From Chloranthus sessilifolius (Eukaryota; Streptophyta; Magnoliopsida; Chloranthales; Chloranthaceae), in NCBI GenBank assembly GCA_021018995.1, contig CM037596.1, positions 70,888,867-70,952,866 on the forward strand: a DNA stretch of 64,000 bases. Direction: 5' to 3'. Of this stretch, positions 40,983 through 62,513 are shown one piece after another. The translations under genes were made by a program, and so were the position numbers. The notes beneath the pieces were generated by a model that had not been told where the DNA came from, made no database searches, and saw only the letters and a program-made list of their open reading frames with translations. Numbering within the stretch: position 1 is the stretch's first letter; each line of letters starts with the position of its first letter.

Positions 40983-41105
40983 TTAGTGCAATGCATTTGC
41001 CATGATCGCACGATGAGAAAGGTGCTACTGATAGAGTTTCCGAAGCACATGATATTTAGCATCATGGTACTTCTTCACCCTGGGGTTTTCAGATGGATGG
41101 ATAAC

Positions 41106-41795
41106 CTGCCCATTTGTGTATCAATCTCTAATTTTTAATTTTAATTTTTGTTAAAAAGTAAGTTTGGTAGTACCCATTTACCTGATTGGTTGGTATGGTG
41201 TTCCTAGTTGACTTCCAATCTAGTTTTGGCACCTGTTCACATTACTTTGGATAATTCTTTAACATTCACTAATGATACCAAGATCGGACGATTTTGACCT
41301 CATGGCGAAAGTGTACGAAAATTATCCAATGTAATCTGAACACTTTCCACAACTAGATTTGGAGTCAACTTGGAACATCACTCCGACTAATCGGGTAAAA
41401 GGGTACTCCCAAAGTGAACTTTTTTTAAAGGTCTCTCCTCCAAACGAAACTAACGCCATGAGGCCCATGACCCGAAATTTCACACAAGAAATGAAATTTC
41501 CCATAGTTAACCATATTTCAAGAGTGCATGGGTGACGATTTCAATTAACAATATTTATTTATTATTATTATTATATTTAATAGGTAAGCTGGGATTGAAC
41601 CAGTAACCTAAAGGTTGTGTTACAACCCACCTCCCAGTCGAGCTACAGGCCAAACCCCAAAGCAATCTATGATTTCGGAAACCATTAGGGAAAACTTTTT
41701 AAATAGAAAAGAAGCGTGAAATTGAATAAATGGCAAAGCGATTGTTGTTTGATCACTCAAAATCTTATTTAATGTCGATATCCGAGATCCTATAC
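41106..41795 (-). other. Intron of FGGY kinase remnant
   Basis: Bounded by GTATAG donor and GGGCAG acceptor on the reverse strand. Holds a tRNA-derived SINE head (41591-41645) and AT-rich tail. Confidence 0.6.
41585..41660 (-). mobile_element. tRNA-derived SINE head (or tRNA relic)
   Basis: Reverse strand has TAGCTCGACTGG (RNA polymerase III A box, 41634-41645) and GGTTCAATCCC (B box, 41591-41601), about 33 bases apart, followed by an A/T-rich tail of ATAATAATAATAAATAAATA. It does not fold as a complete tRNA by eye, so a SINE is favoured. Confidence 0.55.
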
Positions 41796-42203
41796 CTGAC
41801 TAGTTGAATTCAGAGCTCTCTTAGCATCATGAAGGCCAACATATTTCTTTGCAGCAACAGCTTTGAGAATGGCAGCACCCAAGAGTACAGACTCGCCTTC
41901 TTTGGGAAGAATTATCGAGCACCCTGTATGTTTTGAGTCAAGCATCATGTTTGGAGAGAGAGAGAGAGAGAGTTACCAACAATATCTGCATGCTGTTGAA
42001 TATATAATGGATTCTTGGAGAGTCCAGCACATGCAAGGAGAGTGTCAATCTGAAGATGAAGAAAGAGAATGTAAGAGTTGTGCTATAACTTCGATAAATG
42101 GATTTTTCAGTTGATAATTGGTGCTCAGGACAAAAGAACCATATGCTCAGAGTACCTTTTGTACAGAAAATCTGATGCAAGGCGCAATTGGTAAAGCCTA
42201 TAT

Positions 42204-42204
<1 letters not shown>

Positions 42205-42243
<39 letters not shown>
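42205..42243. repeat. (TA)n microsatellite
   Basis: Nearly pure TA dinucleotide run of about 38 bases. Confidence 0.9.
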
Positions 42244-42246
<3 letters not shown>

Positions 42247-42337
42247 AAAGGAAAAAAAACAAAAGCAAGATCATTACAATAGTAAACCTTGAATACTAAA
42301 AAATTTCTATTTCCTTGATCAACTTTTATATACTGAC

Positions 42338-42465
42338 CAGTAAAGTGGTCCTCTATACGAATTTGACTGTCTGGTTTGATTGTATTATCAGTGATCTTTT
42401 CCAACAACTCTTCCACATGCTTAGTAGCTGCATTTACTGATTCTAATAACATGTCCAGCTTAAAC
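42338..42465 (-). pseudogene. SIN3-like corepressor, single exon
   Basis: Reverse strand between an acceptor ATGTCAG and a donor [26 protein letters not shown] and [20 protein letters not shown]. In plant SIN3-like proteins (paired amphipathic helix scaffold of histone deacetylase complexes) the sequence [11 protein letters not shown]...RVEELL..I..NTI...[14 protein letters not shown] lies just before the conserved LNLRCIERLYGDHG. That next exon is missing; downstream lies the FGGY fragment instead. A lone internal exon between pieces of other genes indicates capture. Confidence 0.75.
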
Positions 42466-43142
42466 CTGACATGATATCATAGCATTATGTCAAAATTACC
42501 AACTGGATATAAAAAAGTGTGCATAATCATATATGAGGAATTCAACAGACCTATTTGGAGTTAACCTAGAAGTCTTAAAAACAAAAAGGAAAGCAGAAAA
42601 TGGTCACAAAGGAAGACTGTGTCTTCTTCAGAGAATGGCATAGCATATATAAATAAGTGAATAAATAAAATTCTTTTTTCTTCCTCATTAAAATTTTCCT
42701 TCATGGTAGCATATACTTTAAATCATTTCATGAATACACAGGACAGAAATATACTTTAAGACATTTTGGTACCTATCATCTTCACATCTAAACAGACTTT
42801 CTTCTTATTGGTTTTTGCACATGTGTTTGATGTAGGAATAGCATTCCAAACCGGAAGCAATCCATTGCCCTGTTACTTCAATAGTAATCGACATAACAAC
42901 ATCTCTGTGGCCCCTATACTCAAGATAACATGTCAATGGATAAGGCTTTAGATCTTTCTGACTTGGTAGCTTGGGCTTCAGAGATTCATGGTCAATGTTA
43001 ATATGAGAAATTGATAAACGAACAAGTTTAATTAATTTTGTCTTAAATTTTTTTTCAAAAGAATATGACTGGTCTTATGAAAAAATAAAAAACAACAATT
43101 GATATGGTGCTAATATAGCTTCTATTGCATGGGCTTCCTTAC
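42466..43142. other. Noncoding DNA between BOP1 and SIN3 fragments
   Basis: AT-rich; no exon recognised. The junction between the two captured fragments must lie here. Confidence 0.45.
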
Positions 43143-43919
43143 ACGCCTCTTTCTTGTTCTAGGGCATAAGTAAAGGTCTAAACAACGATCAAGTCCTTCC
43201 TTCAGAGCATTCTCATATGCCGATACATTTCTAAGAGATTGTTACCTGTTTAAAGCACAAACCGTTTTGATAGGATTAATAGATTAAAATAGTCAAAGTA
43301 TTAGATAAAACAAGTACAGGTAGTGGCTATTGAACAAATATAATTTGAGTGAAGACCATAGTACCTTCTTGGAATAAACTTAGGGCGATCTTCCTCGTAC
43401 ATCAGCTAGTAGGAATTGATCTCTTCTTGCGTAGGGACATACTCGATAGAAGGATTGTATGATTCCTCACGACCTGCGAACGGAAATTATAATGTAAGAA
43501 TTGATGGGTTCGAAATGGAGTGGGGGAAATTGTATTTTTAAACACCAAAAGAAGTAGGGATTCAGAAAATGACAAATGTGTACTTAATTAGATGTATAAT
43601 ACAAGCCATGGAACCAATAGACACAATGATAATTTAAAATTTAACTTCACAAAATTTAAAAAGGCAGTTATAATCCAGAATTGAGAACACCTATACACTT
43701 ATGGACTTCCCTATTTTTATGTTGTATTCAGAAAGATTATTGTAGCAAAAGGTAAATACCTGCCAATTTTGGTTTTGGTGCCGAAATATAACTTAATCCA
43801 TGCCCTGCCTTCTCTTTTGATCTAGAATCATCTCCCCATAATAGATAAAAGCGTGACTCTTCCTTAGGTTTCTCAAACTTTATTAAACCCTTCTGTATCA
43901 CTCTGACATATTCAACAAC
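43143..43919 (-). pseudogene. BOP1-like ribosome biogenesis protein, three middle exons
   Basis: Exons 43919-43760 (GLIKFEKPKEESRFYLLWGD and GLSYISAPKPKLAG), 43473-43365 (REESYNPSIEYVPTQEEINS, then LMYEEDRPKFIPRR) and 43245-43143 (VSAYENALKEGLDRCLDLYL then CPRTRKRR), with GT/AG borders. This is the N-terminal BOP1NT domain of BOP1/Erb1, a WD-repeat protein needed for 60S subunit and rRNA processing in the nucleolus. Stops: TAG at 43406-43408 in place of an expected Gln, and TAA at 43242-43244. No WD-repeat exons follow. A further upstream exon is at 61336-61449, beyond the inserted Tekay element. Confidence 0.85.
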
Positions 43920-44160
43920 CTAAACCCAGGAAAAACAATCACCAAAGGCGATCAGATCCAAAGAGTGGAGGAAGCACCTCTATTATGAGTAAGAAAACAT
44001 TTTCATCAATTTATTACTACACAACAACCAAGTTATAGGAATCTAGCTTAAATAGCTTACATAATTGAGAGAGATACAACAGTTGAAAAAATTAAATTGT
44101 TGTCATTTTCCATGATACCAATTGTATATCAGTAAATCATTGTTTTACTTTATCTGTAAT

Positions 44161-44371
44161 AATGCAGTATAATAAATAGGGGCCATTGCTTGTTGCAAAG
44201 GTAAAAGGCTTGGGCTGTCAATTGTGAAGACACAGGTTCGAGTCCAAAGAGCAACCAATTTGTGTCAACGAAGCCAAAGGCTAGGTTTGTATCTCGTCCA
44301 CCACTCCCAACACCCGAACATACGGGATGAGCACTGGATAATGGCCTTTTTTTAATGCAATATAATAAATA
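44161..44371 (+). mobile_element. SINE with 18-bp target duplication
   Basis: AATGCAGTATAATAAATA (44161-44178) and AATGCAATATAATAAATA (44354-44371) flank a 175-bp body. The body has a B box GGTTCGAGTCC at 44235-44245, an A-box-like stretch near its start and a TTTTTTT 3' end. Size, polymerase III box, T-rich tail and long duplication fit a plant SINE of the T-ending (Au-like) kind. Confidence 0.85.
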
Positions 44372-44754
44372 AGGAAAAAGTACAACAACAAACGAAAAAC
44401 AAACCCCAACATATTGAGAGGCTAGCATGCCAAAAACAAAAACAGCCACCGGCCTAAAGGCCACTAAGACATAAAAATAGAATAACATAAAAAGAAAAGG
44501 AGAAATTTCACCAGGTCATTGAAGAAGCAAGAACTGAGAGATGGATCTCAGTGTAACATGTGATATAGAAGGCAAAATTATTTAACTCAGTCTCCTCCAA
44601 ACAATAAGGTAGAAAGTTTGCTACTGGAAAATAAAAAGAGTCATAACGATATAATAAAAGCATTCTTATCCAAGTGTCCTACAGGCTACAACACAAAAGA
44701 TTATTTAAAAGTAAATTATTAAGTCATGATAATTTGATAAGGTAGCCAAATCCA

Positions 44755-44950
44755 TATTTTTAAAGCAGCATGTCCAGCAACTCAGACTAATCCTTTCATC
44801 TCAATATGTCGCCATGTCGGTCATAAATAAAATATATCTAGTAGGATTCAAATTAAATGTGACTTTTAAAGCATCATGTCCAACAACTCAGACTAATCCT
44901 TTTATCTCAATATGGCAGTCATAAGTAAATATATGTAGAATAAATTTAAA
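44755..44950 (+). repeat. Two-copy tandem repeat, about 115 bp
   Basis: TTTTAAAGCAGCATGTCCAG then CAACTCAGACTAATCCTTTC, repeated with few changes from about 44868 (TTTTAAAGCATCATGTCCAA). Confidence 0.8.
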
Positions 44951-46569
44951 TCAAAAGAGAAGCACGAAAAGTTCTTGGAAAAAATAAAAGCCAACCACTT
45001 TTTTATGTGAAACATCTCCGATTGTATTTCGAGGTGTAACCTGCAAGTATATAAATGAAAATAAAATGGAGGGGGCAAAGTCGCACCCAAGTTTTAAAAA
45101 GTATTAAATGCCTTTTAACCAAAAAATCCTATGAAAAATTAACCTTCATGGATTTCAAGAGTGAAGAAATAAATGGTTCATGAGCTCCTTGAAAGTCCTC
45201 ATTTAACAGAACCCTAAGGCAAATAAACATTTGCTACATTTCTTAAATGGAGTTAGGTAGTCACTGCCAAAGTAAAATAATATAAAGAGGAGACCGACTC
45301 CTATGACCGCTTTGTAGAGATTTTGCCCTGAAAAGCACCCATTTAGACAATGTGGTATACATCTTACCATTTAAGTGTCAAATGTGTATGGTCATCACTT
45401 GTAGCATACTCAGCCCCAAAAATACACATATCATATCACAGGAACCATATCCAATCAGAGTACTTTAATATGGATTACTAAAAAAATTGTAACCATCCAT
45501 ATTAGAGAGCATAGATCGGATAGTTTATATTTCCCAATGACCGTGTTTTTGGTCCCATGGTAGCTCCAATGAGCAAGGATTTTGATGACTTGGATTGTTC
45601 AAAAGATATGCCAAGTAATCTAAAATAATAGCTTCCCATTGTAATATCTTGAAAATTTGAGCGTTAAACAGTGACCTCGGGATCCGTGCCCGACTGGTCA
45701 TTGGTTTGACCAAGTGATGGTCAAACAGTGAACTCATGAATTGATGAATTGATGTGATGCAAGTGTGACCTAAGTGTAGTGAATGGTATTAGTTTAGAGC
45801 CACATACACCTATCTCTGATGTATGCACTTAACACCGAAATCGGAGAGAGGATATAAGGGTTTAATAACCCTAGAATCCTTTTGTTTTGGTTGGTGAAGG
45901 AATTAAGAAGAGAGAGAGAGGGAGAAAACAAGAGGAGTTATTGAGGTAGGAGTGAATGCAAATCAAAGGGGTGATTGAGCATTTAATGCCGGATTTCAAC
46001 GCATGAGGAGTCGTTGAAGCAAAAGCTGGAGCCCTAGCCATTCCAACCTAGATATTGGTCAATTTGTACCTTTAGACCTGTTCAGTGTCATTCATGATAA
46101 ATTAACGATAAAGTAAAACAAGAAAACTACTAGTAAATTTGAATGCAAACTACCATCTTTTAAACTATTTTTCCAGCAAGTGCATAGATACATCATGCTT
46201 AGAATATCATGAAATATATGTGAGATTTTGACTTATATATTCATTGTGTTGTTCCCTATTGAGCTAGGATGTAGCTCACCCTTTAGACTATACGTCGCAG
46301 GTCCATTATTAGCAACGTGTCCCGGGGTAACTTTTTTGACACCCGTGCAGCGCCTCACTGCCGCGCACAGCGAGGCTAGCCTAACTCAGATACCAGTTTA
46401 TCACGAAGCATAACCTAACACTGGTTATCATGCTCGTGCAACATCTCGTTGCCGCGCACAGCGAGACCAACTTATCCAACCATCGCTCTGATACCGCTGG
46501 ATCAATTTGGTCATATCCACGCGATTTCACACCACGCTATCCATCACTATGCCATGCACTGAGCATTAG

Positions 46570-47470
46570 TGATTACAGCTCACTCTAGTACCTCAACACC
46601 ACGTGTCTTCACCCAAGAGTTCGTTTAGAAAATTTTGAATTTGAAGCACTTTAGTGCTTCAGTCTATGCAATAGGGGTGTATTTTTGGTCACATTTTCCT
46701 CCCCCACTCGATGCGTTGACGCCCTCGTCAACATCCGAACTCCTACGTCAATTCCTCAACACACAATCTGGTCTTCACCGAAGCACAACTCGAATCTGAA
46801 TCGCAGTTAGTGCACTTCACTGCATACATTTACAATTCTGTGCTAGTACGTCAACCATTTTCGGTGTCTTCACCCCACGTAGTGTTCTAGCCAACTTGGT
46901 CCTGTCAATATTTCACCCAGGTATCTTTATATACCAGTTCCTCATACGACCAGAAGCAACTTGATCGTTAGCATCCAAGTTTGAGCAACTCATTGCACCT
47001 CGTAGCTCTTTAGGTTTTCAACAGTTCATCTTCACCCAGGAGTCTACCTTTCATCTGCACTGCCGTCTAGCACCTCGACACCTCTGTGTCTTCGCCCAAG
47101 AGTTCAACCTATGTTTGATTTGTTGAACTCCAGTACCTCAACGTATATTTCCAACCACGAGACTACCACCCAAGTTGCCTCAACTTGAGCAAAATTGCAG
47201 CTCTAGTACCTCGACACCACGTGTCTTCACCCAAGAGCCTGTCGGTGAGCGATCATGCCCAACCCATCGAAGCTTATCTCTTTTGATCGTAGCAACCGAC
47301 GGAACCTAGCTTTGTCGATAACCACACAAGCCCTCAAAGATCCCGCAGCACTCTAGTACCTCAACACCTCTGTGTTTTCACCCAAGAGCCTGCCATGAGC
47401 ACCTTGCTCAATCAATGAAGCTTTATGCTTCTCACACTATAGTACCTCGACCTCTGTCTTCACCCAATAG
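46570..47470 (+). repeat. Interspersed TAGTACCTCRACACCACGTG repeats
   Basis: A 35-base phrase (CTAGTACCTC.ACACC.CTGTG.TCTTCACCCAAGAG) recurs at least five times (about 46583, 47082, 47208, 47353, 47440) with variable spacers. Repeat-derived reading frames in this region are not genes. Confidence 0.75.
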
Positions 47471-47926
47471 TGTGACTCGAGTCACCTCCTGCAACTCGAC
47501 TTACAGTCCTTCGCGTAGACCAAGGATTTCAACGATCGCCTGGGACTCACTTTCTTTGAAGATTCCCATTTGGCTCTCCTATTTACTTCCTCTGAAGCTA
47601 TACTGGATCACCTAGGACTCGCTTCCTCTGAAGGTACCCATCTAGCTCATCCATTGGCTTCCTCTAAAGCCACGCTAGATCTTCATCCAGCCATCCATCA
47701 CTCGCGAACGTTGTGCCTTATTGTCACACAACAAAGCAACGAGCTTCTGACCCCTACTCTGGTTCAGCCTAGCTCAATACAGTTCTCGCGATAGCTCGCT
47801 GAACTGTATCATCGATCCTAGGCCATCGCAACATATTGATCCTTATTGCTGCCTACCAGCGGTCTAGACCCTCATGTCATCTTTCAGCGACCGATTCTTA
47901 AAATCTCAACTTCTTCAAGTGAGGAT

Positions 47927-48545
47927 GGAGCATCCTACCTGCTCTTTTCCATCCATGGCAACAATGCTCTCAGCACCAACGTGATCCAAAGTCTCATGTT
48001 GGAGATCACTAGCGTTCATCCACCTCGGACCGACTCGCTACTTCAACATGTGGCCCTCGTAGCCAACAAGTTGTTAAATGTGAATGGAGCATCCTACCTG
48101 CTCTTTGCCATCCATGGCAATGATGCTCTCACCACCAACGTGATCCAACGTCTCATGTTGGAGATCACTAGCGTTCATCCGCCTCGGACCAACCCGCTAC
48201 TTCAACATGTGGCACTCGTAGCCAACAAGTTGTTAAATGAGAATGGAGCATCCTACTTGCCCCTTGTCATTTATAGCAATGGTGCTCTCAGCACCAACGT
48301 GACCCAACATCTCATGTTGGAAGTCACTAGCGTTCATCCATCCTAGACCGACCCGCTACTGCAACGTATAGCCCTCATAGGCAAAATCATCGTGAAGAGA
48401 GAACGAAGCATCCCCCGTGCTCCATGTCGACATGGCAATGGTGCTCTCAGCACCTGTGTGACTCAACGTCTCATGTTGAAAGTCACCAGCATCCATCCAC
48501 CTCGGACCGGCCCGCTAATTCAACGCGTGGCTCACATGGCCAACT
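47927..48545 (+). repeat. 159-bp tandem repeat, four copies
   Basis: Units start at 47927, 48086, 48245 and about 48411. Each starts GGAGCATCCTACCTGCTCTT and includes CAACGTGATCCAACGTCTCA. The first two are nearly identical, the last is eroded. The apparent 166-codon frame is a by-product: its peptide repeats with the DNA. Confidence 0.9.
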
Positions 48546-48725
48546 AGCGTCGAGTTCCTTTTTCGCGAAAAATAACCCAGCAGTACCGTCCCTTTGTGCG
48601 CGACTCAATCGCGTCTCAATCGCAGATGTGCAACTCTACTGCATACAAGTAACTCTGGTTGTCACAAAATTAGAGCGCACCTCATCGCTCTAGCTTGCCA
48701 AAGTAGTCCCAATCTGAACGATCTA

Positions 48726-48737
48726 GCTTTGATACCA
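48726..48737 (-). other. Primer binding site of nested element
   Basis: Reverse strand TGGTATCAAAGC, 11 of 12 bases of the initiator tRNA-Met site TGGTATCAGAGC. Other partial matches sit at about 46488 (GGTATCAGAGC), 46393 and 48816 (TGGTATCTGAG). Confidence 0.7.
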
Positions 48738-48739
48738 AA

Positions 48740-50412
48740 TGTCACGGGGTAACTTTTTCGACGCCCGTGCGGCGCCTCGCTATCGCGCACAGCGAGGCCA
48801 GCCTAACTCAGATACCAGTTTATCTCGAAGCATAACCTAACACTGGTTATCATGCTCTTGCAACATCTCGCTGCCACGCACAACGAGACCAACTTATCCA
48901 ACCATCACTCTAATACCACCTGCCTAGAGGACGAAAACTCTCGCATCGTGGTTGCCTTCACTTGAGGCAAACCCACTCAATGAATTGTGTCTAATCACAA
49001 CAAGCATGCCAGCACCTCAGTGCTACTTGGCCTGCCTAGCTTCACCCTGTGCAAAGCACTAGTCCCTCGCTTCAGACAGTGGCATGCATCTCATCATGCC
49101 ATTCAAGCCAACCATTGTGTGTGGCCCACGCGACCAGCACACTTGGAGTAGTATGCAGCTCTTCATGCTCTCCAAACCAAGCATCATATGTGGCCTGCAC
49201 GACCAACACACTTTCGCTCCAGGCCCTCAGCTAGTGTACGCCACTGCGTCCCACGTAGCCCTTGAGTGCCCACGTGAGGTCACCGACCTATGTGCTCCGC
49301 GACGCCGGCATGGGGCCACATGGTAACCTCACCCCAGGTGGCACATGACATCGCCGCAGTGCCGCGTTGCTGCAGTGATGTTCTAGGCCCACCCCTAACC
49401 TAGAAAGCCCATGCGCTCGTCCCGCAACGCAAGGCCCCATGTGTGGGAGAATAGCTCCACAGCTCCCTTCTCCCTATATAAGGGTAAAATAGTCATTCGG
49501 CCAAAATGGCAGGAGAACCTCAAACCTATTGGTTTGACATACCGCAACGCCCTCCCGCATCGCTAGCCCACTTGGCTCAGTCGCGTCCGTGTCGCGACTG
49601 CGTCTTACCCACATGCGACCGTGTCGCGCCCTTGCAATGCGACCACTTTGCCAGGCCCTCTTGGCCCCATGTCGCGTGCCCTCCTGGCACCACATGTCGT
49701 GCCCCAAGCACCATGCGGCAACTATGTCACATCCGTGTCGCGTCCGCGTCGCGACTACGTCATGAGGCCCTCATGGCCTTATGTCCAACATAGCACTGTG
49801 TCATGACTATATCGCAAGGCCCTCATGGCCTCATGCCGCGTGCCCTCATGGCACCACATGGCGTACCCTCATGGCACCGCATCATGTCTGAGTCGTGACT
49901 GTGTCTCGTGTCCACTCGACACCATATCGGGTCTGTCATTACACCTAGATGTCGCGCGCCCTTGGCACTGCATCACGTGCCCTCTTGGCATCGCATCGCT
50001 TGCCGTACAAGCCAGATGTTGCGTGTCCTCTTGACACCACATCTCATGCCAACATGGCACCACCTCACATGCCTTATAGCACTCGGACATAGCGTGCCCT
50101 CTTGACACCACATTGCGTGCCCCTACGCGGAGCACCGCACTACGTGCCTTATGGCACCAAGACATCGCGTGCCCTCTTGGCACCACATCGCATGCACCTA
50201 CACAGAGCACCGCATTCCATGCCCCCACGTGCGTCTATTCACCATCGCATCGTATGTAAGGGACACCTGCACGCATCGCAGGGCCACGTGCCTCTGCGCC
50301 CACGCGCTACACGGCTAGCTTACAAGGTCTGCTTGCCTTATTGCTAGCTAAGTGCCCAGTTCCAAGGTCGTCATACCTTCATGCTGGCGCACAGATTAAT
50401 GAGGCCGTCACA
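48740..50412 (-). repeat. 5' LTR of nested element with GTGCCCTCWTGGCACC repeats
   Basis: Runs TGTGACGGCC...CCCCGTGACA on the reverse strand. Between about 49640 and 50260 it holds many imperfect copies of a GC-rich phrase (CGCGTGCCCTCTTGGCACCA then CATCG), about 35 bases each, which contain the palindrome GTGCC..GGCAC. GC content is much higher than in surrounding DNA. Confidence 0.6.
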
Positions 50413-50503
50413 AGTGGCTGAGGCTTCGGGAGACGTTGATCTGGGAGATTCGGATTATGTGCCTAGGGACGAGTTGGAGCCTCCTCCCGAGGACTTCTTC
50501 TAG
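50413..50503 (+). other. Acidic short ORF in Tekay-3 5' LTR, broken by nested element
   Basis: VAEASGDVDLGDSDYVPRDE then LEPPPEDFF and TAG at 50501-50503. The CGTCGCAG acceptor-like site is on the other side of the nested insertion (46293-46300). Better preserved in the 3' LTR. Confidence 0.5.
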
Positions 50504-50872
50504 GAGACTCTGCTGTGTACTTTGGTAGAGAGTCAATTTTGAGAGCAGATTGTACGGCTTAATATGTCAAGCCTTTATTTTTGTCAAACAATGTAATTAG
50601 ATGGATGTAATTCTTTTGGGTGAACCATATGGGGTGATCTATTTATCACCGATGGTTCGGATCGATTCTCTGTTCATGGAGTGGCATGAAAGTAGAATCG
50701 TCTTTTGCATATGCCAGATGGGCATATTGATTTTCCGCCTTATGCAGTTATTTACTTTATCTGGTTATTATTGCTTGCTATACCAATGTTCCATGCATAG
50801 TTTTGGGGCACGGTCTGGAGGATCGTGCTGATGGCATGGGTTTCGGGGTGCTGAAATCTGGGCTGTCATAGT

Positions 50873-50884
50873 TGGTATCAAAGA
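50873..50884 (+). other. Primer binding site of Tekay-3
   Basis: TGGTATCAAAGA two bases after the LTR end; close to the initiator tRNA-Met site. Confidence 0.8.
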
Positions 50885-50972
50885 TTTTCTTTTAGAAATT
50901 CTGACAATCATTCTTTTGTCAGAGCATAGGGACTTCTACTAATGAAAACTTTATTTTCACGTGTAGACCGTT

Positions 50973-52294
50973 ATGTATTCTAGAGAAAGGGGCCGACCCA
51001 GGGGCGGCCATAGTAGAAACTTGCGTAGCCGAGATGATTTTATCTCGAATACAAATAGAGTGCCTGTAGGAGATAGAGGGGCTTCAGGCAGTGGTGGCCA
51101 AGGGACCCAAGATCTGGCAGAGACTTAGGATCGAGATTAGAGAGAACAGGAAAGAGTCAGAGAAAGAAATGAGAATAGAGAGGAGCGTCAGAGGATGATG
51201 CACACCATGGAGACCATGGCGGCTGCTATGGCCCAACAGGCAGCATCCTTGGTAGCTCATACTGCCCACGAGCAGCATCAGCCACCGACACCTCCAGTGG
51301 CTCCGACACCGCCAGTGTCTTCTGCTTTTACTGAGTTTAGGAGGATGAGACCTCCTAGCTTTTCAGGGCAGGCAGAGCCCATGACAGCTGAGAACTGGCT
51401 GAGTGAAATGGAGAAGGTGTTTAGTGTGCTCACGTGTATAGAGGACGAGAGCATCCGTTAGGCAGCCTATATGTTGGATGGAGAGGCTGGGCCTTGGTGG
51501 AAGTCTGTTTCACGAGCTAGGGCTCAGGAGACTCCAGATTTGCCCTGGACTTGGGATGAGTTTGTGGAGGAATTCAATAAACAGTACTTCCCGGAAGTGG
51601 TGAGGAACCAAATGGAGATTCAATATCTACAGCTTGTTCAAGGGAAGATGACTGTTAGAGAGTATGGGGTGGAGTTCATGCGACTCGCTCGCTTCGCGCC
51701 TGACTACATCATCTCTGTGATGAGAGCAAAGAGGTTTCAGTAAGGGTTGAGATTAGATGTGAGGGGAAGAGTAGCACTATTCCAGCCGAGGACCTATGGA
51801 GAGGTCATGAGCAAGGCCTTGGTGGTAGAGGAAGAAAATAATAACAAGTACTGCCAGAAGAAGCAGCAGGGAAGGTGGAATGTGGACCAAACTAGAACGG
51901 GGAACTATGAGCCGGTGAACAAAAAGTCGAGATTCGTAGCATGCAATTAGAAACCACCATTCCAAGGAGGCTATGGGAGACCAGCACAGCAGAGCAATCA
52001 ACAAAAATTTCCATTACTTGCGTAGGGGAGGCCGATGAGATATGAGAGCCGCGCTATTACTACCGGAGCTACAGTTACACAGGGGTTCTCGGGAGCAGCT
52101 TCTTCCACACCACAAGAGACTTGTGCCAAGTGTGGGAAGTCTCATAGAACGGCCGACTATAGGCAGGGAACTCGGGGTTGTTTTAGATGTGGCAAGGTGG
52201 GCCACTTGATCAAAGAGTGCCCTGAGATGAACAAAGGGAAGACGACTTCAGCTCCTATTCCACGACCGATAAAAGCAAGGAAGTCGATCGTCTA
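50973..52294 (+). pseudogene. Tekay-3 gag
   Basis: Starts MYSRERGRPRGGHSRN. Then an Ala/Gln helix (MAAAMAQQAASLVAHTAHEQ), a Pro-rich linker, the capsid core GEAGPWWKSVSRARAQE with WTWDEFVEEFNKQYFP and EYGVEFMRLARFAPDY, and two zinc knuckles (CAKCGKSHRTADY with last Cys to Tyr; CFRCGKVGHLIKEC intact). In-frame stops near 51119, 51135, 51460, 51743, 51948 and 52023; where the family residue is clear it is Gln, changed to TAG or TAA. The start at 50973 is the first Met after the primer site. Confidence 0.85.
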
Positions 52295-52512
52295 AGGGAG
52301 AGCCTACGCAGTCACAACTCAAGAGGCTTAGAATACAAATGATGTGATCCAAGGTGAGATTTCCTTTAAATAAATAATTTCAATTCTTGAAAATTTTAGA
52401 TAGAGAAGGTGCATCCATATAGAAAATATAAGAAAACTTGCATGTAATAAATTCTAGTATGATGATAGACATTATATATATGTGTATGTATGATTAGGTA
52501 CATTATAAATTT
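52295..52512 (+). other. AT-rich insertion between gag and protease
   Basis: The frame VTTQEA..NTNDVIQGEISF runs to about 52372 and is resumed by SDVTYEARLLIDPGSTHSF at about 52526. The roughly 150 bases between are AT-rich with no coding value. GTGAGATT and an AG suggest an intron, but removing them would shift the frame, so a small insertion is more likely. Confidence 0.5.
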
Positions 52513-52522
52513 ATAAGAAGGG

Positions 52523-55500
52523 AAGCGACGTGACATACGAAGCTCGATTGTTGATAGACCCGGGGTCTACCCACTCATTTGTTACCCCTCGCTTCACAAG
52601 GAGGATGAAAGTCAACCCAGAGGAGTTAGACTTTATTTTAACCGTGATGGTTCCTACTGGGAAATCGGTTGATATCGAAAAGGGTTGCAATTCCGTGATC
52701 GTGAGAGTCATGGATGGAGACGTCTTTGAACTACCGGCGAACCTAATTCTGTTGGACCTGTAAGGATTCGACGTGAACCTTGGCATGAATTGGCTATCGA
52801 CTCACTATGCGATGGTAGATTGCAAGAACAAGGTCATCATCTTCAAACCCAATACGAGGAGATCATTTAGATTTTGAGGGAAGAGGTCGACACATATGCC
52901 ACTTATCTCGGCAGTCAGGGCCTAGAGTTTGATCAGAAAAGGGTGTAGTGGATACTTGGCATTCTTGAAGGAGCATAAAGAAGAGAAGAATGTTATCTCC
53001 GAGATAGCCATGGTGCGAGAATTTGAAGATGTATTTCCAGAGGAATTACCAAGATTACCTCCAGAGAGAGAAGTGGAGTTCGCCATCAACTTAGCACCAG
53101 GAATGGAGCCTGTTTGTAAAGCACCATACAGGATGGCTCCAGCTGAGTTAAAGGAATTGAAGGAGCAGTTACAAGAGCTAATGGACAAGCGGTTTGTTAG
53201 ACCGAGCGTGTCTCCATGGGGAGCACCGGTCTTGTTTGTAAAGAAGAAAGATGGGTCAATGCGTCTGTGTATTGACTATCGACAATTGAACAAACTCACT
53301 ATTAAGAAACGATATCCTTTACCTAGGATAGATGAGTTGGTTGATCAACTGCAAGGAGCGAGATACTTTTTCAAGATCGATCTGAGATCTGGATACCATC
53401 AATTGAGAGTCAAGGCAGAGTATATTCAGAAGACTGCTTTCAGGACTCGGTACAGACACTATGAATTCCTAGTGATGCCGTTTGGGTTGACAAATGCCCC
53501 AGCGTCATTCATGGATCTGATGAATAGGGTGTTTAAACCACACCTAGACTCTTGTGTCGTAGTGTTTGTTGACGATATCCTGATCTATTCAAAATCAGAG
53601 GAAGAGCATGAGAAGCATTTGAGAATAGCCCTATAGACTCTACGTGAACACTAGTTATACGCCAAGCTCAGCAAGTGCGAGTTTTGGTTAGAAGAAGTTA
53701 GCTTTTTGGGACATGTCGTCTCAAAGCATGGTGTCACTGTAGATCCAACAAAAATCGAAGCAGTGGTCAATTGGGAGCAACCAAAGACCATGACCGACGT
53801 CCATAGTTTCCTTGGATTAGCGGGTTACTATCGACGTTTCGTTGAGGGATTTTCAAAGATATCGGGACCACTCACGAGACTCACATGGAAAGACACATGG
53901 TTCGAATGGAGTGAGGCATGCGAGAAGAGTTTTCAAAAACTCAAGAAGAGACTCACTTCAGCTCCAGTATTAGTGATTCCTTCAGGCAGTGGAAGGTTTG
54001 CAGTGTATAGTGATGCTTCGTATACTGGTTTGGGTTGTGTGCTTAATCAACACAAAAAGGTGATAGCGTATGGATCGAGATAGTTGAAAGAGCATGAGAA
54101 GAATTATCCGACACATGACCTAGAATTAGCAGCGGTCATATTTGCGCTAAAGATTTGGCAACATTACTTGTACGGTGAGACCTTTGAGATCTTCACCATT
54201 CATAAGAGCCTCAGATATCTGTTTACACAGAAGGAACTAAATATGAGGCAACGCAGATGGATGGAGTTCCTCAAGGACTATGACTGTTCTATACAGTACC
54301 ATCAGGCAAGGATAATGTAGTAGCCGATGCCTTGAGTCGGAAGGGTTCAGCTCTGTTGGTTAATTTGATTTTGGGTATGCACCGATGAAAGTTATTTGAA
54401 GATCTGGCAATATATGATGCAAACATCGAGTTGCAAGCTACAGGAGCCTTCTTATCTAATATATCAGTGAGACCGGTGATATTTGAGCATATCCACGAGC
54501 TACAGATGAAAGACTCGGCGCTAACCAAGATTCGTCAAGATGTAACTGAAGGCATTAGATCTGAGTTCTCGGTCAAGGAGGATTGCTCCTTATTGTTCAA
54601 GGGCCGTCTTTGCATTCCGGACAATGGCGACTTATGGCGAACAATTCTTGATGAATCTCACAAATCCAACTATGCGATTCACCAGGGTAGCACAAAGATG
54701 TACCAAGACTTGAAAAAGAATTACTGGTGGAGAGGTTTGAAGCAAGATGTAGCGAGTATGTGTCGCAGTGTTTGATGTGCCAACAAGTAAAAATCGATCA
54801 TAGACACCCCGCGAGATTATTGCAGCCTCTACCTATACCAGAATGGAAGTGAGAATCCATCTCTATGGATTTCATTGTTGGGCTACTGCGTACTGCAAAG
54901 AAGTACAATGCCATTTGGGTAGTGGTCAATCGATTGACCAAGTCAGCGCACTTCTTGCCTTATAACACGATGTATACGGCAGAAAGACTCGCAGAGCTAT
55001 ATATGAAAGAGATCGTCCATTTGAATGGAATTCCGAGTAGCATTGTTTCCGACCGTGACCCATTATATACATCAAAGTTTTGAAAGAAATTTCAAGAAAG
55101 AATGGGAATGCGACTAGATTTCAGTACAACATTCCATCCATAAATCGACGGGCAGACGGAGAGGGTCAATCAGATCATTTAGGACATGCTTTGGGCATGT
55201 ATGTTAGAATTACAAGGATCATGGGATCAGCACCTACCGTTGATTGAGTTCGCATATAACAACAGTTTTTAGACGAGGATTGGGATGACACCATATGAAG
55301 CTCTTTATGGACGGCGATGTAGATCGCTCATCAATTGGGAAGAAATCGGGGAGAAATTTGTTTTGGAACTCGAAATACTTGAAGATAATGCCACCTATGT
55401 TCGTATGATAAGGGCAAAACTCAAAGCGGCTCAGAGCAGACAGAAAAGCTACGCCAATATCAAGCGGACGAGTATAGACTTTAAGGTGCGTGAACATGTG

Positions 55501-55911
55501 TTCGTGAAAGTGTCACCTATGAAGGGGGAGATGAGATTTGGAAAGAGAGGGAAGTTAAGTCCCCGCTATCTTGGACCATTTGAGGTTCTAGGTCGAGTAG
55601 GGGAAGTTGCTTACCGCATTGGATTGCCACCATTATTTGATCAAGTACACAATGTGTTTCACGTATATATGCTCAGGAAGTATCTTAATGTCCCTGATCA
55701 TGTGTTGAGCGACAAATCATTTGAGATGCATGAGGATATGAGCATGATCGAAGAGCCGGCAGAGATTCTGGATCGAAAGGAACAAGTGCTGCGAACCAAA
55801 GTGATTCCATTAGTGCTTATTCAATGGAAGTATCATCCGGCCGAAGAAGCTACGTGGGAACAAGAGGCCGACATGAAAGAACAGTATCCGGACTTGTTTG
55901 CGACAGCTTGA
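52523..55911 (+). pseudogene. Tekay-3 pol: protease, RT, RNase H, integrase, chromodomain
   Basis: Protease LIDPGSTHSF (52549-52580). RT has [44 protein letters not shown] and [12 protein letters not shown]. RNase H has [16 protein letters not shown] and [20 protein letters not shown]. Integrase has a finger (HKSNYAIHQGSTKMYQDL ... CLMCQQVK), SMDFIVGL, SDRDPLYTSKF and GQTERVNQ. The chromodomain lies in VIPLVLIQWKYHPAEEATWE. Two frameshifts (near 54302 and 54752) and about a dozen stops (52762, 52924, 53635, 53654, 54082, 54387, 54852, 55082, 55142, 55183, 55271), each explained by one transition in a Gln, Trp or Arg codon. All catalytic residues of RT and integrase are still readable. Confidence 0.95.
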
Positions 55912-56926
55912 GGGCAAAAAAATAATAATAATAAAAAAAATAAAAAAATTTGTATCACCGCAAGCATGTTTGCGGATTTAAACTGTATGTTGTAATCCAA
56001 TGTCGATCTGCTGATCAATTTGTTCAATAGAAATAATTTTTAATCCGCATAGTGTTCCTAATACCATGTCGAATGCATACTTAGAATTCATCATAGCCAT
56101 GACATGACCGTAAAGACCGGTCTCACAAACCAGTGACCAACTAGTCATGTTTTACCAAGAAACCAAAAGAGACAAAAAAATAACAAAAATTTGAAAATCT
56201 GATCAAAACCGATTAGTCGATTTGGGAGTTCGATTAATAGATTTTGGTCGATTAGTCGACTGGCATACTCCAGTGAGTGGATATTGAAGGGAGATACAGG
56301 AAATGGATAAAATGAAATTTCGATTAATCGATTCGGGTTTCGATTAATCGATCTTGGAATTCGATTAATCGTTATTGGAAATTCGATTAATCGAGTGATT
56401 GAGAATTTTAGGAAAATTTGAAGAACTTTACAATTTTGATTAATCGAAGTGAAATTTGATTAATTGATTTTGGGATTTCAATTAATCGATTTTGGGATTT
56501 CGATTAATCGACTTAGAGATTCGATTAATCGATTGGCTCACGCCAGTGAGCTCGAAAAGTTAAAATTTTAAGTGACCACGATTTCGATTAATCGAAATTG
56601 ATTCGATTAATCGATTTTGAGTTTCGATTAATCGATTTTGGAAATCGATTAATCGATTTCGCGCGACTGAATCGGGGCCTATATATATAAAACGGGGGGG
56701 ATTTCTCCCCATTTGAAAATTTGGGGTTTTTGTTCTTGCGCACCTATCCTTCTTCCTCTTCAAGCGACTATGCACCTAGGGTTTCTTGGAGTTTCGAATC
56801 AATTTCGGATCGAAATCGTTTGCATTTGGATAGAATACCTAAGGTAAAACCCTAGATTTCGACTTTCTTTCCATTTCGAGCTATAACACCCTAGTTTTTA
56901 TAATATTTTTACCAAAATGCCACCTA
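55912..56926 (+). other. Spacer between Tekay-3 pol and extra ORF, with palindrome cluster
   Basis: Untranslated. Contains the TCGATTAATCGA cluster (separate entry) and then CT-rich leader-like sequence (CTATCCTTCTTCCTCTTCAA) just upstream of the extra ORF, with TATATATATAAAACGG at about 56680-56695 as a possible TATA box. This arrangement suggests the extra ORF has its own promoter. Confidence 0.45.
56210..56665 (+). repeat. TCGATTAATCGA palindrome cluster upstream of the extra ORF
   Basis: About a dozen exact or near copies of the 12-bp palindrome TCGATTAATCGA, separated by 10-30 bases that often read TTTTGGGATT or TTTTGG. Interrupted by GGCTCACGCCAGTGAGCTCG and GGCATACTCCAGTGAGTGG. The same motif forms a cluster in the 3' LTR. 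Confidence 0.95.
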
Positions 56927-58338
56927 AAACCTGGTTGTCTTCGAAGAAGGCGACATCTAAGCTCCTGATCTGGTGTAAGAACGCCGCACCGCCACTGCCT
57001 ACCCCATCACCTGTGAGGACCCCATCCCCGTCGACATCGAATACCACATCCGGTTCGACGAGCGCATCTTCATGCTAGTCTTCACCAATTCCACCACCAC
57101 CCGAAAACGTCCCCCAACCAAATGAATGGTGGGTGGCTAAGAAGTTTGAAGATGAATATATCTTTGATGTGGAATTGTTTACCAACCCCAACATTGAGGG
57201 TGAGACCCAATGGGCTCGAAATTACTTGGTGAAGGTGGGCCTCGGCAATCTCTTAAAGCCACTCCACGGGTCTTACTACCCTAGGCTGGTCCGCCTGTTT
57301 TACCAAGGTTTGGTGGAGGGTCCTACCGACGACATTGTTACGACCACGATTGATGGTCGTGACTATACCTTCACCCGTCCCCATGTCCACGAAGCCCTAG
57401 AATGTTATTTGGACTTCGTGCCCGAGACCACCCTCTTCCCACCCTTTGCGGAAGAGGTGAGATTTGAAGAAATTATGACCCGGATGACTAATGGGAAGAA
57501 AGGGTCGGGATCGTCTATTAAGAGGGTCGATCTCCCCCATTATATGTGGATGCTTGATTCTATAATCAAGTGCAACCTCTACCCAATGCGTCACGATACC
57601 GAGCGGGTGGAGTTAGTTCAACAGGCCTTGTACGCGACCTTCTGTGGCCGTTGGTTTGACGCTACCAAGATCATCCTGGAGGGGATGGTCTATATAAAAG
57701 GAAAATTGATGAAGGATAATTTGAGGCCTAAAGAGAAGATGCCATATGCTCGCCTCATTTCGAGCATGCTGGAGTGCTACTCAGACGCACCAGGATATGC
57801 CATCTCGCCTCATGAGGAGCGAGCTACGGACCACCTGAAGCATTACTCGATCGCTTCATGGGGTTGTAGTTATCGGTTGCTAAAGCGGACCCTACCAGCG
57901 CAGGGCCCAGCACCAGCAGCAGCAGCACCAGTAGCACCACCACCACCCCCACCACCACATCAGGACCCACCTGTGGGTGGAGCACACCCCATCGATCCAC
58001 CAGCTGAGGGGGAGCCCTCCACTACATCGCCTACGCTGCCATCGCAGTCAGTGGCAGCCACACCCACTTCTTCATACCACCGGCGAGCGGCTCGCCCGAA
58101 GCTTACTATAGAGGATGTGTTGGCTCGGATGGAGGCCAACAACGAGAGGATGAACCGGCGGATGAATTTCTTGATGTACCACACCCTACGGTACATCTAT
58201 CTGTTGGATTACCAGCAGCGCCTTGCGCAGGAAGAGGCGTGGACTACGGGCCGGAAAGCTTTTCATACGGGTGCCACTTTTCACGCGAGTACCTCTGCTG
58301 CCGATGCATGCTCACGCCCAGCAAAGCGTGCGCGATGA
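56927..58338 (+). pseudogene. Extra ORF downstream of pol in Tekay-3 (transposon-protein-like)
   Basis: From ATG at 56927 one frame runs 470 codons with a single TAG (about 57074, after SASSC). A Ser/Thr/Pro-rich N-terminus is followed by EWWVAKKFEDEYIFDVELF, GSYYPRLVRLFYQGLVEGPT, TTIDGRDYTFTRPHVHEALE, LPHYMWMLDSIIKCNLYPMR, VELVQQALYATFCGRWFDAT, MPYARLISSMLECYSDAP, an Ala/Pro-rich linker, and a helical C-terminus with RMNRRMNFLMYHTLRYIYLL and DYQQRLAQ. Residues before 57133 are in frame, so the Met at 57133 is not the original start. The order and several blocks match the ORF at 33725. Helical organisation resembles the plant putative transposon protein domain; no catalytic motif is visible. 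Confidence 0.8.
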
Positions 58339-58652
58339 GCCACCACCACCAGAGCAACCAGACAGAAAGCCCAGACAGATCAGCCAAGAGAGGGGGCAGC
58401 GTGAGCTTGAGCGGAGGATATTCCCTTTTGATTGTAATTAAAAAAAAATGTATATGCTCAACTCTGTAAATTTTGGAAATGGATAATGAAATCATTTTTG
58501 TGAAATTGGTTGCATTACGTTCTGTTTCTTGCATTGTCTAATGTATAAGTCATTTTTTTTGTGTGGGTCCGCGACCCCAAGGTGTGGGGTACCCAACCAA
58601 CGACGCACCTTTGGGTTATTTTCGAGGATGAAAATTCCCAAGGTGGGGAGAA
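58339..58652 (+). other. 3' untranslated end and polypurine tract of Tekay-3
   Basis: Contains TTTTCGAGGATGAAAATTCC, shared with Tekay-2, then the purine tract AAGGTGGGGAGAA at 58640-58652 immediately before the LTR, the priming site for plus-strand DNA synthesis. Confidence 0.8.
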
Positions 58653-59219
58653 TGTAATATCCCGAAACTTTGAGCGTTAAACAGTGACCTCGAGATCCGT
58701 GCCTAAATGGTTGTGGGTTTGACCAAGTGATGGTCAAATAGTAAACTCATGAAGTGATGAACCGATGTGATGCAAATGTGACCTAAGTGTAGTGAATGGT
58801 ATTAGTTTAGAGCCACATACACCTATCTCTGATGTATGCGCTTAACACCGAAACTGGAGAGAGGATATAAGGGTTTAATAACCCTAGAATCCTTTTGTTT
58901 TGGTTGGTGAATGAATTAAGAAGAGAAAGAGGGAGAAAACAAGAGGAGTTATTGAGGTAGGAGTGAATGCAAATCAAAGGGGTGATTGAGAATTTAATGC
59001 CGGATTTCAACGCATGAGGAGCCGTTGAAGCAAAAGCTGGAGCCCTAGCCATTCCAACATAGATATTGATCAATTTGAGATTGATTGAAGGTGAGTTTCT
59101 AATTGAAGTTAATGCATAGATTGTAGATGATTAAAATCAGTCAAATGTAGCTAAAGGATAGATTAAGGACTTAGAAAAAGGAAGGAAAAAGAAAAGGAAT
59201 GGGTTTTAAAAGAACAGCC

Positions 59220-59705
59220 CGAAAGGGGGCTGAATCTGACCAAATCGATTAATCGAAATCGAGATTCGATTAATCGATTTTGGTCTAGAAGTTGAAAAGT
59301 CAGGGATGCCTGATTTTGATTAATCGATGTTGAAGGTCGACTAATCGATTTAGAAATCGACTAATCGACTGGGTACCTCCAGTGGCTGGAGAAACAAGAC
59401 CTGGGAAAATCGACTAATCAAGTTGGGAAATCGATTAATTGATTTTAGATTTCGATTTATCGATTTGGGATAGACTAATTGATTTCAAACTTTTGACCAC
59501 TCGGTTTGAGAATCGATTTTAAACTTTTGACCACTCGGTTTGAGAATCGATGTTACTATTTTAGGGATTTCAATTAATCAATTTTGGATCGATTAATCGA
59601 TTTTGGATCTCGATTAATCGATTTTGGGAATTGATAATCGATTTGGGTTTCGATTAATCGATTTTGGGAATCGATTAATCGATTTTGGGAATCAATTAAT
59701 CAATT
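59220..59705 (+). repeat. TCGATTAATCGA palindrome cluster in Tekay-3 3' LTR
   Basis: About eight exact cores plus variants (TCGACTAATCGA, TCAATTAATCAA), separated by TTTTGGGAA-like spacers, about 0.57-1.05 kb into the LTR. GGGTACCTCCAGTGGCTGG interrupts it, as a related phrase does in the internal cluster at 56210. Confidence 0.95.
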
Positions 59706-60727
59706 TTAACAGTTTCAATTGACTTTCTAGTTTGACCTTTAGATTCATGAAGGGTCTAGGACCTTCTTTATTACATCTTTAATAATGTATTGCATGTGTT
59801 GTGATGTACCATAGGTGGTACGTGTGAAAGCAAGCACAAGGAGCCGCGTGGGACCTTGAGGCTTGGACCTTCGGAGACCTGAGGTAGGGAACACCTTGAA
59901 CATGTACTTTAATTGCAAGAGCATGTATGTAGTGATATAGAACTTAAACTGAAATGTTTTAACTGAGTAAAGGTTTGTAAAAATGGGTGTGTGTGTGTGA
60001 CAATAAGAAAGTGATAAGGCATCAGTGTGATGCGAGTGACAGAGATCAAGTAAACTAATGAAAATGAGGCATCCCCAGGGGATGAGAAAGTTTTAAAGGC
60101 ATCAGTATGATGCGAGTAATTCAGGCATCCCAGGGATGTAAGTAAGATTGAATAACTACTGTTAAGGCCTAACTGATATAAGATAGCACTTTACACGGTG
60201 AACAACTATATGTAAAGCACATGTTATTTTTGTTATTTGAGGTTTGATTAGAATACCCCACCGACGTGGCGGAATACCCACGACTGACTCGGCAGGATAT
60301 CCGTGACCAGTACGACGGCCAATCCGTACACCAGTACGGAGGTCTATCCAGGCACAGTAAGCACATCCCAGGGATTTTGAGATGAGATTTAACCCCGCCG
60401 CCTATTGAGAAAGGGGCTTGGGTAGTATTCCCAGGGAATACATATAACAACTGTCTATTTAGGCGACGATGGTGGGTATTCCATCGGGGCTCGATGCTAT
60501 ATTGCTCGGGGATTACTTAAGTTGAAGATTTAAGTTTTGCTTTAGGCCTGTTCAGTGTCATTCATGATAAATTAACAATAAAGTAAAACAAGAGAACTAC
60601 TAGTAAATTTGAATGCAAACTACCATCTTTTAAATTATTTTTCCAGCAAGTGCATAGATACATCATGCTTAGAATATCATGGAATATATGTGAGATTTTG
60701 ACTTATATGTTCATTGTGTTGTTCCCA

Positions 60728-60832
60728 GGTCTATTATTAGTAGCGGCTGAGGCTTCGGGAGACGTTGATCCGAGAGATTCGGATTGCGTGCCTGGGGACA
60801 AGTTGGAGCCTCCTCCCGAGGACTTCTTCTAG
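60728..60832 (+). other. Acidic short ORF in Tekay-3 3' LTR
   Basis: After TTCCCAG: GLLLVAAEASGDVDPRDSDC then VPGDKLEPPPEDFF and TAG at 60830-60832. Between the two LTR copies the frame is open to the same stop and retains its acidic C-terminus despite several substitutions. Confidence 0.5.
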
Positions 60833-61204
60833 GAGACTCTGTTGTGTATTTTGATAGAGAGTCAGTTTTGAGAGAAAATTGTATGGCTTGGAATGTCAAG
60901 CCTTTATTTTTGTCAAACAATGTAATTAGATGGATATAATTCTTTTGGGCGAACCATCTGGGGTGATCTGTTTATCACCGATGGTTTGGATCGGTTCTCT
61001 GTTCATGGAGTGGCATGAAAGTAGAACTGTATTTTGCATATGCCAGATGGGCATATTAATTTTCTACCTTATGCAGTTATTTGCTTTATCTGGTTATTAT
61101 TGCTTGCTATACCAATGTTCTGTGCATAGTTTTGGGGCACGGTCTGGAGGATCGTGCTGATGGCACGGGTTTCAGGGTGTCGACATCCGGGCTGTCACAC
61201 CCAT

Positions 61205-61335
61205 GGTCTCTTTCTATAAATGCTTCTTATTCCAATTATTCCTATAAAATGATATCTAGTGAAGGTAAAAAGAGACTGTAAAGGTTAAAATATGCAATTA
61301 TATATTATTTTAGAAATTAGGAATATAGCACAGAC
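61205..61335 (-). other. Remainder of BOP1 intron
   Basis: AT-rich, joins across the Tekay insertion to 45634. Confidence 0.5.
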
Positions 61336-61449
61336 CTCATCTTCTAAGGAATCGCTCTCTTTTGCTGTATGTGTTTCAGCAACGTCATCTTCAACAACTG
61401 GCCCATGAGCATCAAGTGGTTCCCCATCTTCACTATTCTTAACAAAACC
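61336..61449 (-). pseudogene. BOP1-like fragment, N-terminal acidic exon
   Basis: Reverse strand with acceptor TGTTGTAG and donor GTCTGT: GFVKNSEDGEPLDAHGPVVE then TAKESDSLEDE. BOP1 proteins have such a Glu/Asp/Ser-rich stretch (ending ..ESDSSEDE) before the conserved BOP1NT domain. The exon is 114 bp. It lies upstream of the exons at 43143-43919 and is separated from them by the Tekay element. Low-complexity sequence makes this call weaker than the domain exons. Confidence 0.6.
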
Positions 61450-61684
61450 CTACAACAGAAATTATGTAACTTTTTAAATATACCCCAATAAATATCCAAT
61501 AAAAATTAAGATGCATATTAACCTACAGAAATTTGTCACCAAATTCCAAATTTTTAAAAAAGTAGTTAATGCCTTTGAGCCAAAGAATATTGTGAAAACT
61601 AATTTTCATAGATCTCAAGAGTGAAGAAATAATGGTTCATCCTTGAGCTCACAGAAACAAAACTGTAAGTCAAACAAATATTTA

Positions 61685-61810
61685 ACGAATCAACGAATCA
61701 AGCAAATATTAGAAAATCAACGAATCAAACAAAAAATTGGAAAATCAACGCATCAACGAATCAAACAAAAAATTGAAAAAATTGGAAAATCAACGAATCA
61801 ACCAATCCAT
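61685..61810 (+). repeat. ATCAACGAATCAAACAAAAA minisatellite
   Basis: Five or more imperfect units of AAATCAACGAATCAA with variable AACAAAAAATTGG spacers, in the noncoding leader between LRR and BOP1 fragments. Confidence 0.8.
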
Positions 61811-61954
61811 CTCAAATCCTACTCAAAATCAACCAAAATGTAACAAAAAACTATATAACATACTTAAATCTGCATTCACCAGCTTCTAATCCATCTCAAA
61901 TCCTCCACTCTACAAGATTAAAACCATATAACATACCTAGATCAGCGTTCACCG

Positions 61955-62205
61955 GTTCCCAATCCATCAGAAAAATGATCGGTTGATCGAAGCTACCCAG
62001 AGTTCCGTGTAACGTATTGTTCGAAAGATTCAACTGTTGCAAGATTGAAAACTAAACAAGTTTCAGGAACCTCTCAAGTAAAAGAATTCGGTCGAAGATC
62101 TATTTTTCGAGCTCACCAGAGAAGTTTCCGATCCATTGAGGAATCGAACCTCCCAAATCTTGATTTCTAGCCAAAACAAGCTCCTGGAGACCACGTAACA
62201 AGCAA
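61955..62205 (-). pseudogene. LRR protein fragment (LRR receptor-like)
   Basis: Reverse strand frames: LQELVLARNQDLGGSIPQWI then GNFSGELE, and further on LQQLNLSNNTLHGTLGSF. These fit the plant extracellular LRR consensus L..L.L..N.L.G.IP..IGN. The two pieces are separated by a stop and a shift. There is no signal peptide, kinase or membrane segment. It is the first captured segment inside the CACTA-type end. A duplicated 70-base stretch (ATATAACATACTTAAATCTG / ATATAACATACCTAGATCAG) follows it. Confidence 0.65.
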
Positions 62206-62513
62206 GAAAATGCGAGAGAGGCTAGGGTTTGTCGATCGAGAGAGAGGGAGAGAGAGGCGAGGGTTTCGAAGAGAAAAAGAAGGGTTGAGAGAAAGGCGTC
62301 TTGTGTTTAGTGATAAAGAGTGAAAAGAGAGGCTCAGGGGGGGGGGTGGGATGATTTGCACGTGATGATAACACGTGATAGGAGGATGATTTACTAAACC
62401 ACTGATTTAACTTAAGAAAAAACTATTTTAGGCAATGGTATATTGCACCACTATTTTAAGCAGTGATTTATTTTAAGTTGCTACAGTAGTTTTTTCTCCA
62501 TTTTGACGTAGTG
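62206..62513 (-). mobile_element. Right-hand CACTA-type end no. 3 with leader
   Basis: Ends TTTTGACGTAGTG; reverse strand CACTACGTCAAAATGG. Subterminal motifs AAATCACTGCTTAAAATAGT and ACCATTGCCTAAAATAG repeat just inside. Then, on the reverse strand, comes a CT-rich leader (CTCTCTCTCCCTCTCTCTCG) leading into the LRR fragment. Candidate 3-bp target TAA. The left end was not found. Confidence 0.6.

Follow-up and report, generated by a model that had tools for sequence, protein, structure and literature searches.

CACTA, BOP1, SIN3-like and FGGY sequences in series at one locus of the Chloranthus sessilifolius genome

Introduction

How do pieces of unrelated genes come to lie one after another, in one orientation, behind the end of a transposon? 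The question is raised by a 64,000-nucleotide stretch of contig C13 of Chloranthus sessilifolius (C13:70888867-70952866, here called the window; the assembly has 2.17 Gb in 32 contigs). On its minus strand a unit runs from the CACTA terminus CACTACGTCAAAATGG at 62513 down to the stop codon of an FGGY kinase fragment at 40983. Between them lie, in this order, pieces resembling a leucine-rich repeat (LRR) gene, BOP1, SIN3 and FGGY, and the unit is split by a long terminal repeat (LTR) retrotransposon at 45640-61199, called Tekay-3 after the original prediction. That prediction read the unit as one element that had captured four genes in series. We observe that the CACTA 5' module is joined, within a 14-bp zone matched by both partners, to BOP1 DNA derived from contig C3, that this BOP1 DNA is joined to a SIN3-like piece by a join also present on contigs C1 and C4, and that Tekay-3 cut the unit. 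With moderate confidence, we regard the locus as a decayed composite in which the front of a Pack-CACTA became attached to a BOP1-SIN3 chimera that was mobile before, with a remnant of FGGY next to it.

Results

The coordinates of the unit are collected in Table 1. Its BOP1 piece was recognized by Pfam (BOP1NT, E=2.8e-46) and by comparison with the PDB (3.2e-36). A protein search with the BOP1NT exons returned the window, C1:189.846 Mb, C3:148.606 Mb and C4:40.107 Mb, together with remoter copies on C1, C3 and C14. The gene at ~148.598-148.607 Mb of C3 matches the window at 94.8% (66 differences in 1,261 sites). The match includes the introns, so that DNA and not spliced RNA was copied, and the C3 gene is the source. 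Like the cargo of Pack-CACTA elements, the BOP1 piece thus comes from a host gene at another place in the genome, and the predicted presence of a parent gene in the same assembly holds for this piece. Upstream parent sequence matches window 44285-44095 and 61683-61200, and the acidic exon, which has no match in Pfam, is counted with BOP1 because of where it lies in the parent locus. Between the two matching stretches, window 45087-45181 resembles the parent (at C3:148599513) as a repeat only. Parent bases C3:148601391-148606177, which hold two more exons and an intron insertion, are missing from the window at 44095/44096; parts of them occur in the C1 and C4 copies. The intron insertion of the parent (loci L048/L047) gives RNase H-like translated pieces and is presumably LINE-like (long interspersed nuclear element). 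An 81% direct repeat (45087-45181 and 61546-61640) lies inside the BOP1 piece, and similar second rows were seen near the matches on C3, C12 and C1.

The C3 parent no longer matches the window past 42829 and runs on into open WD40-like coding sequence, as judged by eye. The C4 copy, by contrast, aligns unbroken with window 44096-42292 at 89.3%. The C1 copy aligns from 44096 to 42687 in one piece at 91.7% and, after a 1.16-kb insertion, from 42670 to 42292 at 94.7%. The BOP1-SIN3 join is present at at least three loci (C13, C1 and C4). Since both copies cross the point at which the parent stops, the join arose once and was then copied; the chimera is real and copied. The name of its second part is less firm, with a Sin3_corepress match (E=0.003) of 18 bits against a curated Pfam cut-off of 25. 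Comparison of this exon with the PDB gave no credible match and two chance-level rows only, and the identity leans also on likeness to plant SIN3 sequence. No CACTA end was found around the C1 and C4 copies within the 7.9 and 5.1 kb examined. Past 42292, where the window goes on to FGGY, both copies continue differently and stay alike for ~455 bp that the window does not contain. This stretch comprises an inverted repeat resembling a miniature inverted-repeat transposable element (MITE) and a gene-like scrap without a match in Pfam, which we take to be a CHD/PICKLE remodeller.

The right-hand end of the unit is of CACTA type with a CT-rich leader, as predicted. The 13-mer CACTACGTCAAAA at 62501-62513(-) is the sole exact one in the window; with up to three mismatches there are 23 window matches, against a chance mean of 17.65. 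A TAA (62514-62516), a candidate half of the target duplication, flanks the terminus outside; no second copy of it at a matching 3' terminus was found. The terminal 556 bp matched 67 rows in the genome, the window included (40 of 1,345 candidates scored), from which 20 relatives were picked and each read over 10 kb. Terminus and subterminal module are common to the relatives: all 20 match the window end, 14 of them to 61967 or beyond, which covers most of the LRR scrap, and nine to 61690 or beyond. The LRR scrap and the leader thus both lie inside the 5' module of ~844 bp, and the idea that the LRR piece was captured privately by this unit had to be given up. Its assignment (LRR_1, 8.5e-5) was obtained on a peptide with X at the stops and is a weaker call.

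Ten relatives were compared pairwise over their first 2.6 kb and fell into the groups L021/L030, L025/L026/L027/L037 and L028/L029/L031, with L023 alone. Likeness within groups runs through the whole 2.6 kb, in some with an indel, and between groups covers only ~0.6-0.95 kb, which argues for a rather constant 5' module followed by differing cargo. The module stops near the start of the cargo in three groups. One relative on C5 is complete (L027:101-4661; 4.56 kb); its two ends read CACTACGTC and CACGTATTG, and the target-site duplication TTG is present on both sides. It carries an AUX/IAA fragment in sense (AUX_IAA, 1.2e-17) and presumably a further, MS1/PHD-like scrap to which Pfam gave no match; a transposase family was not found in it at E<=0.01. 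Its 3' module occurs also in L028, L029 and L033. In L029, UCH (2e-24) lies in antisense; TPR and glutamate-synthase, in sense, matched weakly and below their cut-offs, and the remaining part of L029 matched no family. The predicted carriage of genes by CACTA relatives is thus borne out, and this high-copy family is real. A single cargo orientation is not upheld as a rule of this family, unless UCH sits in a nested insertion. In L033 the 3' module lies at 5874-6536 (element sense), reversed relative to the 5' end at position 101, and two elements or an inversion probably meet there.

The left CACTA end called for by the original prediction was not recovered: the L027 3' module has no match in the window or the adjoining 10 kb on the left, and no second CACTA end for the unit was found in the window. 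Two CACTA-like ends were noted elsewhere in the window. CACTACGTGAAAATGC at 28826-28838(-) adjoins Tekay-like coding sequence that starts at 28862; similar in type to the L027 3' terminus, it would be part of a plus-strand element. TTTTTTGTAGTG lies on the plus strand at 27886-27899, ~0.9 kb to its left.

Where the CACTA module meets BOP1, the relatives read AAATATTTGTTTGA followed by TTCGTTGA or a variant, whereas the window reads AAATATTTGTTTGA followed by CTTACAG. The parent BOP1 match spans the same 14 bases as the end of the CACTA homology, and a switch at short similarity would fit this join. In a search with a query across the join, in which 40 of 320 candidates were scored, none of 40 other rows passed query 445 of 541. 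The BOP1 front recurs at 92-93% at five further loci (C1:38.902, C12:6.281, C1:134.241, C3:28.604 and C1:4.653 Mb), each starting at query 17 (61674), compared with query 8 (61683) for the parent; they are absent among the rows listed for the terminus and junction searches. We set aside 61674 as a Helitron 5' end, as there is no TC there. So far, the CACTA-BOP1 join and the one to FGGY are private to the window, apart from a partial copy at C11:87650633 that starts at query 1 and may cross the first of them.

FGGY was identified by Pfam (FGGY_C, E=1.1e-9) and in the PDB by a relative (9.5e-22) deposited as a glycerol/xylulose kinase. A protein-level genome search found no close relative: at other loci the protein likeness is 61-80% and covers one or two exons, compared with 94.8% in DNA for BOP1. 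The piece may be a native relic.

The proposed series of four pieces on one strand was recovered in the same order, over 5,971 bp without Tekay-3. The claim of correct splice borders stands for most exons. An AG acceptor and a GT donor are both present in six of nine (the acidic exon, BOP1 e1 and e2, the SIN3-like exon, and FGGY A and B). The same is true of e3 when its start is put at 43245, and in the final exon, FGGY C, the acceptor is present. BOP1 e4 has lost its acceptor, with CAT in place of the CAG of the C3, C1 and C4 copies. The expected stops were found in BOP1 e2 (TAG), BOP1 e3 (TAA, which is TAC in the C3, C1 and C4 copies) and FGGY C (TAG). Judging by its sequence, with these stops and without that splice site, the locus should yield no functional BOP1 or FGGY product.

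The LTR blocks of Tekay-3 differ at 69 of 1,068 sites (Kimura two-parameter distance 0.068), which corresponds to an insertion age of about 2.6 million years at an assumed rate of 1.3e-8. Its left LTR holds a 4.2-kb insertion (46257-50412), in which 159-bp tandem repeats occupy 47920-48531 and the two copies of a 178-bp direct repeat (46318-46495 and 48740-48917) are 91.6% alike. A 419-codon open frame lies at 57079-58335 (+), between the pol region and the right LTR.

Table 1. Features of the unit and its surroundings (window positions)
Feature	Position	Strand	Remarks
CACTA 5' module (terminus, CT-rich leader, LRR scrap, 28-bp tandem repeats)	61670..62513	-	shared by the 20 loci read, nine of them to 61690 or beyond
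LRR-like coding scrap with stops	61968..62190	-	inside CACTA 5' module
Overlap zone of CACTA-BOP1 join	61670..61683	-	CACTA homology to 61670; parent BOP1 match from 61683, five other BOP1 copies from 61674
Acidic exon	61336..61449	-	DNA match C3:148598701-148599066, upstream of BOP1NT exons
Tekay-3 LTR retrotransposon	45640..61199	+	inside BOP1 piece; target-site duplication CCCAT on both sides
BOP1 piece, putative continuation	44286..45639	-	placed by position between two parent-matching stretches
BOP1 DNA piece	42829..44285	-	93.7% and 94.0% to C3
BOP1 exon e1	43760..43919	-	
BOP1 exon e2	43365..43473	-	in-frame TAG
BOP1 exon e3	43143..43245	-	TAA at start
BOP1 exon e4	42852..43002	-	acceptor AG lost
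Piece with SIN3-like exon, joined to BOP1	42292..42828	-	join common to C1 and C4 copies; shared sequence ends at 42292
SIN3-like exon	42338..42465	-	Sin3_corepress, below cut-off
Three 3'-terminal FGGY kinase exons with introns	40983..42049	-	exons 41977-42049, 41796-41923, 40983-41105 (with TAG)
LTR-like end of another Tekay-like element	38065..40422	+	bounds unit on the left

Discussion

The original prediction of one element with four serial captures is not demonstrated, as the stretches examined around the C1 and C4 copies hold neither a CACTA end nor an FGGY continuation. Its gene identities hold for BOP1 and FGGY, and less well for SIN3 and LRR; a close parent was found for BOP1 and not for FGGY. 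Of the joins in the unit, the BOP1-SIN3 one recurs among the copies found. In the composite that we favour, BOP1 and SIN3 DNA would first have been joined in another mobile copy. The CACTA front could then have gained the ready-made chimera by a short-homology switch during repair of a break or gap, or alternatively by a nearby insertion followed by a deletion. The FGGY exons beyond 42292 would be a separate older remnant or a later join. Several observations weigh against this account. With only 40 of 1,345 terminus and 40 of 320 junction candidates scored, shortened or diverged modules could be missed. CACTA ends may lie further out around the C1 and C4 copies, whose flanks were read for a few kb, and around the five BOP1-front copies. 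C11:87650633, a partial copy, matches query 1-212 of the BOP1 front and may cross the CACTA-BOP1 join. A cargo that starts at the end of the module also fits plain capture by CACTA.

This last point leads to a less likely alternative, in which a single Pack-CACTA took up first BOP1, then SIN3 and then FGGY DNA behind the 5' module, and has since lost its 3' end or has it outside the window. The gene fragments in its relatives, AUX_IAA in the complete L027 and UCH in L029, speak for it, and C11:87650633 may carry the same junction. It is harder to reconcile with the absence of the 3' module from the window and the adjoining 10 kb, with C1 and C4 copies that share BOP1-SIN3 without FGGY, and with five BOP1 copies that are missing from the listed module matches. 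We think it unlikely that the composite arose by a two-stage relay, in which one class of mobile element joins and multiplies host gene pieces and a CACTA front with leader and LRR scrap then takes over the chimera at the 14-bp similarity zone. Helitrons carry several gene pieces with introns in one orientation; they have a TC 5' end and a 3' hairpin followed by CTRR, and insert between A and T. The one orientation of the intron-bearing window fragments resembles this, and the weak hairpin followed by CTGAT, at which the C1 and C4 copies part together, may be compared with such a 3' end. In a genome search with this C1/C4 end, the match stopped at query 451-456 in 11 of 70 other rows, although four of the 11 stop at 451, before CTGA, and many rows are the inverted-repeat, MITE-like piece (query 70-224). 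C2:128598008 picks up the match again at query 453-538 after a gap, which may speak against a true end at this place and weakens the relay reading too. We consider it quite unlikely that a Helitron-like or other vehicle carried BOP1-SIN3, with the gene-like scrap on C1 and C4, and in the window inserted into a CACTA element; the lack of a TC at 61674 points the same way. Old native pseudogenes and a transposon end that lie near each other by chance are a very improbable explanation. The distance of FGGY from its relatives far exceeds that of BOP1 from its parent, and FGGY could be such a native relic, but the BOP1 parent is on another chromosome, and recurrence of the BOP1-SIN3 join on C1 and C4 refutes chance nearness for that pair.

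The composite reading places the locus among known phenomena, of which it is a broken example: the shuffling of gene pieces in plants. The close precedent is Tgm-Express1, a soybean CACTA element of the wp allele, described as a delimited element in which 5.7 kb hold both exons and introns from five unrelated genes and from which chimeric transcripts were recovered (PMC1947982). With five gene fragments, introns among them, described there within one CACTA, the kind is known. The present locus resembles it in carrying exons and introns of unrelated genes. It differs in that no 3' end was found, the frames are broken and BOP1-SIN3 is common to loci so far without a CACTA end. Pack-CACTA and other Pack-TYPE elements (PMC8903248; PMC13317346) have constant termini, variable host DNA inside and many copies, as here. 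The present locus differs from them in that its cargo was apparently assembled before meeting the CACTA end, and in that the 5' module itself has an LRR scrap. Chenopodium CACTA elements likewise carry gene fragments in the 5' region, upstream of their own coding sequence, with one gene per element in the cases described (PMC8978399), in contrast to several genes in succession here.

The relatives work like Pack-CACTA, with a transposase presumably made elsewhere and cargo changing behind a constant 5' module, and this module could supply a candidate promoter, leader and splice donor to the cargo. In a 2.17-Gb plant genome we thus see a CACTA family whose front module, with leader and LRR scrap, is constant while the gene cargo behind it varies. 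Since one chimera occurs in several copies and its parent gene is known, the order of the joining events can be worked out. If the relay is true, gene pieces would move from one transposon class to another and acquire a front resembling a promoter, and such a relay between vehicles would help to explain how pieces of several genes come together in one element.

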